From assembly GCA_000320605.2 (NCBI GenBank), contig KB445791.1:959906-1023905 (forward strand): 64,000 nt of DNA. Direction: 5' to 3'. Position numbers and translations under genes: made by a program. Positions 31,540-37,947 of the stretch are shown here, in pieces (within the stretch, counting starts at the first letter, position 1; every line of letters starts with the position of its first letter). Below the pieces are notes generated by a model. That model did not search any database, was not told the DNA's origin, and worked only from the letters and a program-made list of their open reading frames with translations. The stretch is from Gelatoporia subvermispora B. Its lineage: Eukaryota; Basidiomycota; Agaricomycetes; Polyporales; Gelatoporiaceae.

Positions 31540-33802
31540 GCTTGTGTATGGCCTGCTATACTTCTGGGGGGATCGCTCGATCGCGTAGATCATGGCTATG
31601 ACTATGACGCATGATCCTTGTGCAGAACCATCACTATCAACTGAGGCCAAACTACTCGCCCTTTGTAAACTATACATACACACACCGTGTCTCGCGCAAT
31701 CCATTCTCGCTCGGACGGTCGGATCTTGTCGTGTGTTCCGGGTGCATATCATCGTCTCGTGTCGTATCACGAATCAGGTATCACTGTTACAGAGTGACTG
31801 GCTGCAGAAGGCGAAGCCTGCCTTCTTATTTCACCGCTGGACCCAGTGCGCCCGTCCAGGCCGGCGTGGCCGCTGGCAGGCCTGCATGGCGCGGACGTCT
31901 GGTGGCACATGCGTGCATGATGGACGGGCCTCGGGGCATCTGCATCGCCAGTCACCCAGCGGGACAGCTCACTCACAATAGGCACCAGGCATGGACGCTA
32001 TCAACCCACTCGATGCGCAATATCCAATCGACGTGGACCGCGCGGCCGGCGCCCACCTGCGTCCACACTCCGGACGCTCCGTCACGGCGGAGCGCCGTGG
32101 TGCTCGTGCTACATCCAATCTTGCACAAACGCTATGGGACTGGCCTGATGGGCAGCCGGCGCGGGCACGCCGGGCTCTGCGCCAAGCTCGCTGTGGCATT
32201 GTCAGAGCGCCAGGACGGCGCGTCGGCGACACCGGGGGCAGTGGGCAGTGGCAGGATCAGAAGAGAAGGATCAGTGCATCACCGCGCTGCGGGCTATTTT
32301 CTGCTGGGCTGGGTCGTTGTGCTGGGGCCGAACGCATCGGGTGCGCAGGTCGCGCCGGGGTTCCCCCGTGCGCACAGCGCACTGCGCCCCACGCGGCGAC
32401 AGCCTGGGTACGCCCCGGGCGAGCTAACAACCGCCGAGCGCGACGGCGGAGGACGGCGGATTCAGTATTTGTATGTGGCGACGCGCGAAGCCGGCGTGCG
32501 AGCACGCTGCGCTGCGTTACGCTGCGCAACGTCGAACCAGCAGCTTACAGCGCTCGCCTTACGGCTTGTGCTGTGGCGCACGAACTGCACAGGGCGAGCA
32601 CTACCGGGTGCGCACGGCAGCGGGCACGGCAGGACGTCCGGGGCTGTCAAGACTAAATAGATAACTGGGCTGATCAGGGCGGGTGTGTATGCGGTCAGAA
32701 TACAGGGCATTAGGATTGTCTACGCGTAGTGCACTCGGGAGTCCTCCATGGCAGACGTGGAAACCATACGGCATAGGGGGATCAGATGCAGGCCCGGTGG
32801 CGCACCGGCACCGGGGACGAAGAGTAACTATTGGACAGGACGCGCCGCGGGCCGGCAGACGAGGACTGAGAGCAGCAGGATGAATTGGCGCGTGCGCGGG
32901 CCTAGCAATGTCGTGCGTGCGAGTCGGGAGCCGTGCGGGAGCGTGTGGGGCGAGACGGGACGGAGAGGGACGAGCCAGAAGGTACGGAGGATGGGGTGGG
33001 GTGGAATGTTGGTATATGCCATAACAAAGTAGAAAGCGATGCGAGTTCCAGATGGGGTGGGTGCGGGTGCGTGGGCTGTATACTTTACGGTAGCGATACG
33101 GTACGGTACGATATAAAGGAGCGTGTGTATGCGCGAGCAGCGGCGCGCAGGGGGCCCCGCCGCGGTGGCCGACGTCGTCGAATGCGCGCGGACGCGAGCC
33201 TGAGGGCCCTGCCAGAAGCCGGCGGCAACCTGGATGGAAGAAGGAAGCAAGGCGGTCGAGCGCGCGGGCACGCGTTCCCAGCCGCCCTGATCCGGCGCCG
33301 TGCATAAAGGGCTTCTGATGGGCACATGGCTGCGCGGGCTGATCCTCAGAGCATGATTTCGCGAATCTAGTGCAAGGGTCAGCCTTCCGCACGGAGAGAC
33401 TTCGCGCGCGGCAATACCCACGTTTTTGCTAATGATCGTGCTGCGAGTTCCACGCGCGACGTGCAGGGCGAGCGGGCCAGAGAAGGTAGTTTCGGGTTTG
33501 AATTTCGGTGTGGGGGAGCCATGCGAGTAGGGGAGCGAACGAAGAACACAGTGAGTCAGAGAGCAGAAGCATAGGCGGTAGACGAGACGAGTTGCGAAGG
33601 ACACGATAGGAGAGAATTAGTCAGAATCAGTACGGTCAAAGCAGGGAAGCATAGCCAAGAAAGGGAAGTTAAAGTGCGAAAGTGAGGGTGGGGGCACGGA
33701 CGTGCAATACAGTTTTAGATAGTAATGATAAATCAGGAACGAAAGGGTTACAGGGGGATTACATGCATGACGCGGGGATACAACATGGGGAGGGTATGAG
33801 AT
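31540..33802. other. Gene-free 2.3 kb downstream of the G-alpha gene
   Basis: Open frames of up to 349 codons (plus, 31611-32660) and 263 codons (minus, 32601-33392) overlap each other on opposite strands. They show no domain, and their Arg/Ala/Pro composition reflects high GC. I treat them as chance. The right end should hold the 3' UTR of the G-alpha gene. Confidence 0.5.
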
Positions 33803-35477
33803 CTAGATGAGCGCCGCCGTGGCAAGGCTTTCTCGAAGAATAATGCTGAAGGTCGGTGGGGGGGAAGTTGAGGCAAGTTGAGCAACGTGATCGCCACAGC
33901 GGGAACGATTCAAAAGGGCAAAGGTGATGTGGGGAAGGGGGGATACAACGAAAATAGCACTCACTCTGTAAAAAGGCATGATCAGTTTCAGGCGCGCAAT
34001 TCCGATCGACCGGAGGTGCTCACCTTCAACAGCGGCCATAACTACTCTGAGGTTGTTCGTGTCCGTCGCAGTCGTTGTGCTAGGCGCAGTGATGGATCAA
34101 TATCCGCAAGATCGGAGCACCGCAAACCTGTGGGGAGGTGACACGCACTGAATGTAGATCTCCCGCTCCTTGGCGTTCGCCTTCTGTGCTAATCTTGCGA
34201 AGCGCTTCTTGAAGTATTCACGGCCAGCACGAGCATCACCCGGTTCGCCATCGTAATCCTGGCAAACTCAAGTCAATCATTGGGGCGATCGCAGTGATGA
34301 TGTAGCATACCGGGAAGAAGTTCTTGATATCCGAGTGCGCTACCTTGCGTTCGTACAGGTCATTTTTGTTCAAGAACAGAATCTGCAGCGAGTGTGAAGA
34401 GCGTCATGAATATTTGGGGAGAAAGAAGCCTACAATTGACGTTTGCTTGAACCATTGCGAATGACATATTGAATCCCAGATGGTCATCGCATCTTGCATT
34501 TGATTCTAGCGCATATAGTCAGTTTTCCAGCCGAAGTAGTGAAGGAGGAGGCTACGCACAGCGTCCCGGTCTTCTACAAGGCATTGATCGAAGCCGCTGA
34601 GACTGACGAGGAACAGAATACTCGTGACATCCTGGAAACAGTGGATCCACTTTCGTCGCTCGCTCTTCTGGCCACCGACATCGACCATAAGCATCTCGTG
34701 GTCGCGCAGATGGAAGATGGTCTCCGTGATTCCGATGGTTCGTGCGCGCGCATGCACAATGTCCTGCTCGCTGGGAACGTACGCAGGGTCGAACAGCCGG
34801 TCAAGGTCCGCGAAGTAGTAACTCAAGCTGCGCGGGCGAAGTCAGCATGTGCTCATGTCAGAGAATACGAACTGCTTACTTTTCAGGGAGCGCGGCTTCA
34901 TTGCCCCTCTCCCACGCGCTCTGGATACCAGTATCCTCCCAGAGCTTGCGGAGGATTTCGAGGTAGTCGGCCGGATAAGGCTCGCCGTCTTTGATATCGA
35001 CGGCGTCTTCGATGAAGGGCACATACTGCTTGTTATCCTCGGTGACTTCGAGGCCCATCTCCTCCATGGCCTCGAGGACGTATCTGAGGCCATGGGTGAG
35101 GTTATTGAAGACAAGCTGGCGGTAGGACTCGACCTCTTGCACGGAGAAGGGCACGTGGTGGATAAGGCGCATCTGCTTGAGGATAGTCGACTTGCCAGAG
35201 TCACCGGAACCGAGGAGCAGGACCTGCCGGCGGGAGTGTGAGCGGGATATTGAGGGGGAGGCGGAGATTAAAGAGAGAGTAACGACGGACCTTGACTTCC
35301 TTGGACATCTTGGCCTTCGCCTGCGGGAAAGAGATATCAGCGTATCGTTCGGCGATGAAGCATATAATGGGCTAGCTGGCGACGCACCTCCTTGAGGGAC
35401 TTTTCAGCTTCTCTGTGAAGCCGCTTGTCCTCCTCGCTGATCTCCACGACGGAGGAGGATGATAGGCACGCGCCCAT
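33803..35477 (-). CDS. Heterotrimeric G-protein alpha subunit
   Basis: The GTP-binding alpha subunit couples a membrane receptor to effectors such as adenylate cyclase in mating or nutrient sensing. Exons are 35388-35477, 35291-35320, 34880-35223, 34560-34827, 34434-34505, 34311-34382, 34149-34258, 34024-34079, a single base at 33965, and 33803-33845. They sum to 1086 nt (361 residues). MGAC at the start gives Gly2 myristoylation and Cys palmitoylation sites. Motifs are GSGDSGKST (P-loop, usually GAGESGKST), [11 protein letters not shown] (switch I Arg and Thr), [19 protein letters not shown] (switch II Gln), [13 protein letters not shown] (NKxD) and [13 protein letters not shown]. The tail [15 protein letters not shown] depends on the 1-nt exon. 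Divergence in the P-loop and switch II fits a basidiomycete-specific alpha class rather than a close Gi homologue. The coupling partner is unknown. Confidence 0.93.
33965..33965 (-). other. Predicted single-nucleotide exon in the G-alpha gene
   Basis: On the coding strand an acceptor (TTTTTACAG, ending at 33966) is followed by one A (33965) and at once by a donor (GTGAGT, starting at 33964). Splicing GAAG (ending 34024) to A to CATTATT (from 33845) gives codons GAA GAC ATT ATT, which restore the family's acidic residue and the reading frame of the C-terminal helix. The flanking introns are 58 and 119 nt. Confidence 0.7.
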
Positions 35478-35800
35478 GATGGCGGGTTAGCTGAAGAGGG
35501 GGCGAGGAGAGAGTGAGACCAAGGTCAGAAAGAGGGGGGACAGTGGGGTCGGTGACCGGAGTGGTCGGGATGATGACGGGGACTGGGAAGAGGGCGAGGG
35601 AAAGTAAGGGCGAACAATATGATGGAGAAGCCGGATAATCAGCGTGTGGGTAACAGGTGATGCGGTGGGGACTCACCAGACGGGCAGCCAGCTACGGGTC
35701 GGGGGGAACGGCGGGGACGGGGGGAAAGAAAGCCGGAAGAGGGAGAAGGCGAAGAGGAGTAGAAAGTGGGAAGAGAGAGAGGAGAGCTAGCTGGGGGATG
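35478..35800 (-). promoter_or_regulatory. Pyrimidine-rich upstream region of the G-alpha gene
   Basis: The plus strand is dominated by GA, GGA and AGAG runs, so the coding strand upstream of the ATG at 35477 is CT-rich for about 300 bp. This resembles fungal core promoter and 5' UTR sequence. No single start site or TATA box was assigned. Confidence 0.4.
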
Positions 35801-37947
35801 GTGGCGGATGGTGGCGGAGGGATCGGGCGACGCGCCTGCCACTATCCTGACTGACGTCCCATAGCATTAGCCTAGATCCACGCGGATCTCGCGGCGCGCT
35901 CCCACGCCTTTCGGGCTTTCAATCCTTACTTACTACATTAACAAGACTTGCAGGCGGATGCTAACGGAAGTAAGACGGAGATACAATGGGCCGCAGGGCT
36001 GGCGGGATTAAGGGAGATGCGCGGCGGATGCAATCTGGGCAGCCGCACCAGCCGTCGGCTGCAACCCCCGCCCCGCCGCGCCCCGCCAGTGCCTGCCCGC
36101 CCCCTCGTCGCCCGCACAAAGTATTAGCCCCGCCCCCGCCGCACCCAGCGAGCACAAGACCCCGCCATGGTCGGACGTCGTCCAGCGTGTCGCCCGAGCA
36201 TCAGCGAGCATCACCACCCGCGGTCGTGGGCGCGCTCCCACCGCGCCCACGCACATATAATTATGTACATGGCACCGGACGCCGCGGCCGCGCACATTGA
36301 CTCGCCAGCCCATGCTCGCACGCATGCACAGAGCCCGTCCGCGCGCGACGCAGGGTTACCATCGCGCGGTACGTGACACGCCCCCTGTTCTGATGCGCGA
36401 CACCACTTACGATTACCCTCCCCCGCGCCATGTGCTGCGCCCGCTACCGCGCCACCACGTCCGTATGCACGTACGCACGTCCTTGCGCATGCCCAGCCAG
36501 CCCTCTTTGTTGTCCCCCGTCTTGCCCCGCCAACACAGCTCGTCCCCCGCCGCATGCGCCCCAGTTGCGACACCCTCGACTCGCCGCTGACACCACAATG
36601 GCGCAACGGGGCCGTCCCCAACTGGATCTGGCCTGTGGATCCCCCGCTCGCCTTTGCGTGCCGCGCCCCGAAACCCTCCCATTGGCCGCCGCCCCCACTT
36701 TCCATACCGCGCAAACCGCGCCTCGGCCCCGCGCCTGCGCCTTGGCCCGAGGAGCCGCACTCCCCCAGGCTGAGACAAGCAAGTACGCAATCCCGTAATT
36801 CCCCTGCTGATCCCCGCCTGCGCGGCCCCCGCACCCGCTCTAACGGCGGCGCATCCTGCGGATTGGGCAGACCAGGACACGACGGGATAGGACAGGACCT
36901 GGGATCGTCCTGCGAGACCATTCGCCCGCCCGCGATGTGCCTCCCGTTCGCGCTCTCCCGCATGTAGGCTCGCTTCTGCGCCTGCACGGGCCCACCAGCC
37001 CCAATTGGACTCGCCCCGCGGTGCACCCGGGGGGACGTCGCGCTGGCAACGTCCCGCCGCTAGCGGCGCAGCTTCCACGCAGAACGTCCAGCTAGGCACG
37101 GCTCGCTTCTCCCTGCATCGAAACAGCAGCTGCGCTCGCCCGTCCAACGCGCCCGTGGGCCGCGATCGTGTCCACATACACTTACAGCACCCGCCCCCTC
37201 TCGTCCGTCACCCATCATTTGTAGAGCCCGGAGCCTCGACGTCGACTGCGAGTTGACGTAGTTGGCATATCTGATCTCTGACGCGTTTGCTACTCTGATC
37301 GCAATTACTCGTCGCATTTGTCGCCGCGCCCTGCGTATGACATATGTATGCCGTACACGCGCACGTCTGATCGTCGCTGGGGAATCGCCCGGGGCGTGCT
37401 ATGTTGCCGTTCCGGACGCGGGTGTGAACCGACACTCGACACACGCGGCGGCGATAGGATTACAGATGTCGCTGCGTCGATTTTGCTGGCATGCGCGCTC
37501 CGGCCGAGTGGATGGCCGCAATTTCACGTCGGTGCCGTCGAACCTTCGACCTGGCCAGGCGTGCGGATGGTGCGATGCGAACATGAGGCGTTGCTGAGAT
37601 GCGAGCTTGTGCGGCTGGAGCGCTCCTGGTTCCTAGTAGACAATTACACAATCTAATATACACATGATATATGCACATGCACATGCACGAGAGCAGAAGG
37701 AAACACGGTTCGAAAAGGAGATATTACAGACAACAAGACAAGAACGGAGCAAGACAGATATAACCTGACGGGGGCCGGAACCAACAATGCGTGTATACGA
37801 TACAGTGTGCTTGGAGACCAATTCGAACGGATCTTGCGAGCGGATGGGCGCAGCAGGCAGATACTTGGCGCCGAGTACTGGGTGTCTCGAGTGCCAGTCA
37901 CCAGTTGCGCAGGGATCTTGGTATTGCACCTGGTATAGTGCGCATGG
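35801..37947. other. Gene-free GC-rich region upstream of the G-alpha gene
   Basis: Long frames overlap on both strands (for example minus 36211-37026 and 36413-37177, plus 36430-36798). They have no domain and biased Arg/Pro/Ala content, so I regard them as GC artefacts. The region may be an extended regulatory region. The right end holds the 3' UTR of the next minus-strand gene. Confidence 0.45.

Follow-up and report, generated by a model that had tools for sequence, protein, structure and literature searches.

A probable one-nucleotide exon leading to two alternative C-termini in a G-alpha gene of Gelatoporia subvermispora

Background and Summary

A G-alpha gene of Gelatoporia subvermispora B very probably contains an exon that is one nucleotide long. 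One nucleotide is the smallest possible exon. The base, an A at position 33965, is flanked by canonical splice sites (TTTTTACAG-A-GTGAGT). By moving the phase from 1 to 2, it completes an Asp codon (D) at the start of the C-terminal tail. As far as sequence can tell, this would be a real and conserved exon, and it would also be the common donor for two alternative C-termini, here called tail A and tail B. All positions are those of the window, which is the whole stretch of 64,000 nucleotides from contig KB445791.1 that was analysed.

An earlier note on this DNA had proposed the one-nucleotide exon. The sequence, the exon and intron coordinates, the acceptor, the lone A and the donor GTGAGT are all as it gave them. 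It had also said that the lone base completes the G-alpha C-terminus. The base does complete the Asp codon, but two alternative tails would use it, not one. The second 3’ end, which lies downstream at 33440-33346, was absent from that note.

Gene Structure

In the GT-AG splice model that ends in tail A, the gene has ten exons on the minus strand, running from 35477 to 33803 (Table 1). The spliced coding sequence is 1086 nt long including the stop, which is divisible by three, and it encodes 361 aa. This length had been claimed before for the case where both introns around the lone A are spliced, and the splice model reproduces it.

The Pfam family PF00503 matches both isoforms over residues 20-350, with 390.5 bits against a cut-off of 48.8. 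The G-alpha nucleotide-binding motifs and an MGxC N-terminus can be read in the spliced translation, and these are common to the consensus of the relatives. In database matches, relatives of the gene are called ‘alpha subunit 4’ or GPA2-like. Among the matches listed, the nearest named relative is from Obba rivulosa (94% identity, 96% query cover), which a taxonomy look-up places as a polypore in the Gelatoporiaceae.

Table 1 Features of the G-alpha gene, in window coordinates.
Feature	Position	Strand	Basis
Coding exon 1 (MGACLSSSS...)	35388..35477	-	Splice model; N-terminus fits relatives’ consensus MGxCxS
Coding exon 2, 30 nt	35291..35320	-	Splice model
Coding exon 3, P-loop GSGDSGKS	34880..35223	-	Motif and splice model
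Coding exon 4, DVGGQ, switch region	34560..34827	-	Motif and splice model
Coding exon 5	34434..34505	-	Motif and splice model
Coding exon 6, NKND	34311..34382	-	Motif and splice model
Coding exon 7	34149..34258	-	Splice model
Coding exon 8, end ...GTTGAAG, phase 1	34024..34079	-	Splice model
Intron 8, 58 nt, GTGAGC...TTTTTACAG, branch-like CTGAT at -20	33966..34023	-	Splice model, motif scan
Putative one-nucleotide exon A, middle base of Asp codon GA-C, common to both tails	33965	-	Splice models and parse enumeration; D in relatives
Intron 9, proximal choice, 119 nt, GTGAGT...CCTTCAG	33846..33964	-	Splice model
Alternative last exon A (tail A after D)	33803..33845	-	Splice model; tail A in relatives
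Intron 9, distal choice, 524 nt, GTGAGT...CTCGCAG	33441..33964	-	Splice model
Alternative exon B1, 19 nt, (D)TIISKN	33422..33440	-	Splice model; tail B in relatives
Tail-B intron, 55 nt, GTGGGT...CACTAG, branch-like CTGAC at -16	33367..33421	-	Splice model
Alternative last exon B2, IREIML-stop	33346..33366	-	Splice model

The second 3’ end is found downstream of the stop at 33803, and consists of an acceptor, exon B1, a short intron and exon B2. When this end is spliced onto the lone A, the translation runs D-TIISKN-IREIML-stop, for a coding sequence of 1083 nt. Tail A and tail B are both entered in phase 2. This means that they are compatible as exclusive 3’ ends of one gene, and also that both need the same one-base exon.

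The coding part of tail B is itself split into 19 nt and 21 nt. An annotated Lactarius protein (P0157) retains the second tail-B piece alone, as GTIRDIML, and the split may be common to relatives such as Lactarius.

The Probable One-Nucleotide Exon

In splice models that leave out the lone A, both tails are frame-shifted. Every GT-AG splicing route that leads from exon 8 to the stop of tail A was enumerated, with a lower limit of 35 nt for introns and an upper limit of 60 nt for a middle exon. This yields 18 in-frame parses with the tail-A end, 4 with a single intron and 14 with two. The single-intron parses give proteins of 365, 400, 403 or 405 residues. The parse with the one-nucleotide exon is the sole one among the 18 that has both the VED context and 361 aa. 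The earlier claim that such an exon is needed to obtain VED plus a family-like tail stands up here, and the contig proteins of relatives, described below, agree with it.

The 178-nt gap between exon 8 and the tail-A exon was also shuffled 20,000 times with its dinucleotides preserved, requiring both introns to be at least 40 nt. The pattern YAG-N-GTRAGT turned up with a frequency of 0.0001 (about 1 in 10,000). For the looser YAG-N-GTRNGY this is 0.0016, and for a bare AG-N-GT it is 0.12.

These frequencies bear on another explanation, in which a base close to the edge of an exon was lost through an assembly or sequencing error and the lone A is a coincidence. A single missing base would indeed suffice. 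However, a site made up of acceptor, A and donor is improbable by chance, and the same one-base problem is repeated in several genera. An error of this kind is extremely unlikely.

The introns themselves also carry signals. The branch-like motif YTNAY is present at -15 to -22 in all nine coding-region introns outside intron 9, including intron 8 and the tail-B intron, where shuffles of each intron lead one to expect 5-15% per intron; the -15 to -22 window was picked post hoc, once the first motif results were known. Because it has the motif, intron 8 looks like a normal intron even with the frame argument set aside. The same scan found no YTNAY at either of the intron-9 acceptors, proximal (33964-33846) or distal (33964-33441). 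This is a point against the two-tail model, and also a hint that there may be room for regulation at these sites.

C-Terminal Ends in Relatives

The ends of related proteins were read from annotated proteins and from proteins on short contigs (1.1-3.2 kb). The latter were treated as cDNA: the proteins are unbroken, at 219-404 residues with most near 360, and the contigs carry no RNA label.

A whole-protein search gave 969 matches, and the best 120 of these comprise 70 annotated and 50 contig proteins. Among these matches, all 50 contig proteins have the D followed by a tail, which is tail A in 31 and tail B in 19. The D with either tail occurs in 0 of the 70 annotated proteins. Their ends are VEE-stop (25), tail A without the D in place (13), tail B likewise (6), and other (26).

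A pooled set adds two tail searches, and holds 69 contig and 91 annotated proteins among the matches listed. The tail searches are biased toward tail-bearing sequences, and therefore the count from the whole-protein search is the fairer one. In the pooled set, D at the Asp codon plus a tail is found in 69 of 69 contig proteins, 43 with tail A and 26 with tail B; two of the 43 (P0148 and P0151) fall outside the pattern and were assigned by eye. The annotated proteins contain no case of D with tail A, one of D with tail B, and 28 of VEE-stop. A recognisable tail without a proper D is present in 25 (17 A, 8 B), and 37 have other ends. The sole annotated D with a known tail is P0128 from Mycena indigotica, which is B-like (TIVANSIRAFLL). 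One of the 37 others, P0060 (Serpula), has VED and then a foreign tail.

Some of these ends can be retraced to the lone base. A gene predictor that uses the acceptor before the A reads the A and the following GTRA as GAG TGA or GAG TAA, which is E and then a stop. This accounts for the VEE-stop class. A model that joins exon 8 directly to the tail-A exon ends up one base off, which accounts for a class of -1 tails. Twelve annotated tails that start with A or V were tested for such a -1 reading of the tail-A exon. It fits 6 of the 12 over the whole tested length, and does not fit the other 6. The fits are P0030, P0056, P0134, P0143, P0155 and P0158, from Daedalea, Heterobasidion, two Mycena, Athelia and Psilocybe cubensis; three of them (P0134, P0143, P0158) are also compatible with a looser tail-B profile. 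As a control, 16 of 20,000 shuffles reached seven positions. With the six -1 fits set apart, 31 of the 91 annotated ends are in none of the named classes. Models that end in VEG plus a tail may come from transcripts whose additional base had to be placed on the G next to it.

VEE-stop or -1 ends are found in Corticiales (Punctularia), Russulales (Heterobasidion), Agaricales (Psilocybe) and Atheliales (Athelia). They also occur in Grifola and Daedalea, of the Polyporales. Tail-bearing models without the D are further present in Gloeophyllales, Boletales and Jaapiales. The way in which these models fail suggests that the exon would have length 1 in other species as well. A one-nucleotide exon would also explain why public models, where examined, are cut short or garbled at the receptor-reading end.

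The same proteins allow two simpler splicing schemes to be weighed. In the first, only one intron is removed. Exon 8 is then either joined directly to the tail (34024 to 33845), with the tail in another frame, or the frame is restored by a donor at 34010, giving 365 aa. Canonical GT-AG sites are present for both, and six annotated relatives are compatible with the direct join. The direct join, however, gives a frame-shifted tail here, and the donor at 34010 is GTCGAT, which is unlike GTRNGY and adds four residues to the last helix. Neither kind of end is seen in any of the 69 contig proteins. Removal of a single intron is very unlikely to be what happens.

In the second scheme introns are retained, and the real product is VEE-stop (intron 9 kept) or a protein with 59 additional in-frame residues (both kept). 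The 28 VEE-stop ends among the 91 annotated proteins fit this, and so does the fact that the frame with both introns retained (34023-33846) has no stop here and preserves the tail-A end. The earlier note had held that the alternatives to a one-base exon destroy the C-terminus. That is not right for double retention, which stays in frame and reaches the same end. Against retention, it would lose or interrupt the C-terminal helix, and its ends occur in 0 of 69 contig proteins. As the main product it is highly improbable; an intron-retained form may be made in small amounts and have a regulatory role.

One Gene or Paralogues

It could also be that one gene does not use both tails. They would then belong to paralogues, or each species would use one of the two, and the B exons seen here would be a relic. 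The database rows are single proteins, and a pair of A and B transcripts from one named species is absent among them, as this explanation would have it. In the present gene, however, both tails are found at a distance of 362 nt from each other. They share one phase, and both have an open frame and splice sites of their own.

A tree was made of the protein bodies after removal of the tails and of short sequences. It has 91 rows, of which 56 carry tail A and 35 tail B. The tail label changes 25 times on this tree, versus a mean of 28.2 for shuffled labels, and 57 of 500 shuffles were as low. It was built by a quick method, support is poor for 35 of its 88 inner branches, and P0136 is a long row; its well-supported branches alone force 12 tail changes. 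The tails appear intermixed nearly at random, as alternative ends of a single gene would be and unlike what old paralogues would show. Loss of one tail in each species would produce the same pattern. Since the two tails form no separate clades on this tree, paralogues were rejected as their origin.

Very similar bodies can carry different tails. The body of P0119, a contig protein with tail B, is 99.1% identical to that of P0098, an annotated Suillus protein with tail A. Near Mycena on the tree, P0122 (B) and P0130 (A) have bodies that are 96.4% identical. Clustering at 90% identity hides closer body pairs. With all of this weighed, separate genes or species for the two tails is an improbable explanation, and use of both tails by one gene is the preferred one.

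Elsewhere in the genome there are some twelve more G-alpha-like loci, many of them divergent (36 motif matches; L009-L020). Among these 12 regions, L009 alone has a clear match to the C-terminal motif. L009 and L011 were read by eye, without formal splicing; there are ordinary introns near the end, and the lone base was not seen in these two.

Structure of the Tails

With the Asp that the lone A supplies, tail A can be aligned gap-free with the C-termini of solved G-alpha proteins up to residue 359. Predicted folds of relatives with tail A have a helix at 336-361, where pLDDT is below 50 at 356-362. For relatives with tail B, pLDDT is below 50 at 348-360. The models are too weak to judge either tail.

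Proposed Mechanism

The sites, the phases and both tails are read directly from this DNA, and the D with both tails is read from the intronless sequences of relatives. A two-step, recursive-like splicing process would tie these together. Intron 8, which at 58 nt is normal, would be removed first by ordinary intron definition. The resulting junction, GAAG-A/GTGAGT, would then be a fresh donor. This new donor would be joined to the proximal acceptor, leading to tail A, or to the distal one, leading to tail B. The product would be two G-alpha proteins with a common GTPase body and different receptor-facing C-termini. If intron 9 were retained, the protein would end in VEE-stop, a G-alpha without its receptor-facing end. 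We infer that these junctions are used in G. subvermispora, that the steps take place in this order, that the choice is regulated, and that the two tails couple to different receptors.

A more ambitious reading can be entertained tentatively, at somewhat less than even weight. The one-nucleotide exon would be ancient and kept across the Agaricomycetes as a recursive splicing hub. One donor would face two weak, competing acceptors, which would make the receptor-reading end swappable, with VEE-stop as an uncoupling outcome. If this were true, a single base would switch signalling specificity, and annotated genomes would mostly have concealed it.

Even on the plainer reading, a conserved one-nucleotide exon with two C-termini suggests that one fungal G-alpha gene could address two sets of receptors. 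It would also be a good system in which to study the recognition of an exon of this size.

Relation to Known Systems

Single-nucleotide exons are not new. In Arabidopsis, one in APC11 was shown using cDNA and reporter constructs (Guo and Liu 2015, PMC4674806). As here, two introns enclose a lone A that the frame requires and that annotation overlooked. It differs in being from a plant and described as constitutive, and the accessible part of that paper mentions no alternative downstream exons (PMC4674806).

For the one-nucleotide exon of Fusarium CYP621A, the authors state that it is the first from a fungus and the second overall (Nelson and Syed 2026, PMC12940212). They describe a compound intron of 139 nt. 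Like the present case, this is a fungal nuclear gene in which one base completes a conserved codon, and where orthologues share the exon and have gene models that are wrong there. CYP621A, however, is an ascomycete P450 in which the base is G and one product is described, while here it is a basidiomycete G-alpha in which the base is A and there are two ends (PMC12940212).

Vertebrate GNAO is also one G-alpha gene with two C-termini that differ in the receptor-coupling region, through the mutually exclusive terminal exon pairs 7/8 (PMC5896119). These are ordinary exon pairs, and the available text of that source mentions no micro-exon. They were gained in vertebrates according to the same text, and are therefore independent of the fungal case (PMC5896119).

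Fungal [D] stwintrons, going by the accessible portions of two papers, likewise involve two nested or consecutive introns that are removed stepwise, where the first junction makes the second donor (PMC5639578, PMC12403724). In a stwintron the inner intron splits the outer donor, whereas here one base stays in the mRNA between the introns. A [D] stwintron, so described, was rejected as a reading of this gene, given that the A must remain in the mRNA for the frame.

Among the matches listed from open-licence literature, neither a fungal G-alpha with alternative C-terminal exons nor a basidiomycete one-nucleotide exon was found; for both, this is weak evidence of absence. What appears to be new is the combination of a one-nucleotide exon with two G-alpha C-termini that it serves; the very rare kind of exon is already known from APC11 and CYP621A.

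Other Observations

A search of viral contigs for relatives of the gene gave 24 pattern matches, of which 0 were confirmed. An Rfam scan of 33000-36000 gave no match at the gathering score. Just upstream of the start codon there is a possible 5’ UTR intron of 186 nt (GTGAGTCC...CTCTTCAG), at 35676-35491.
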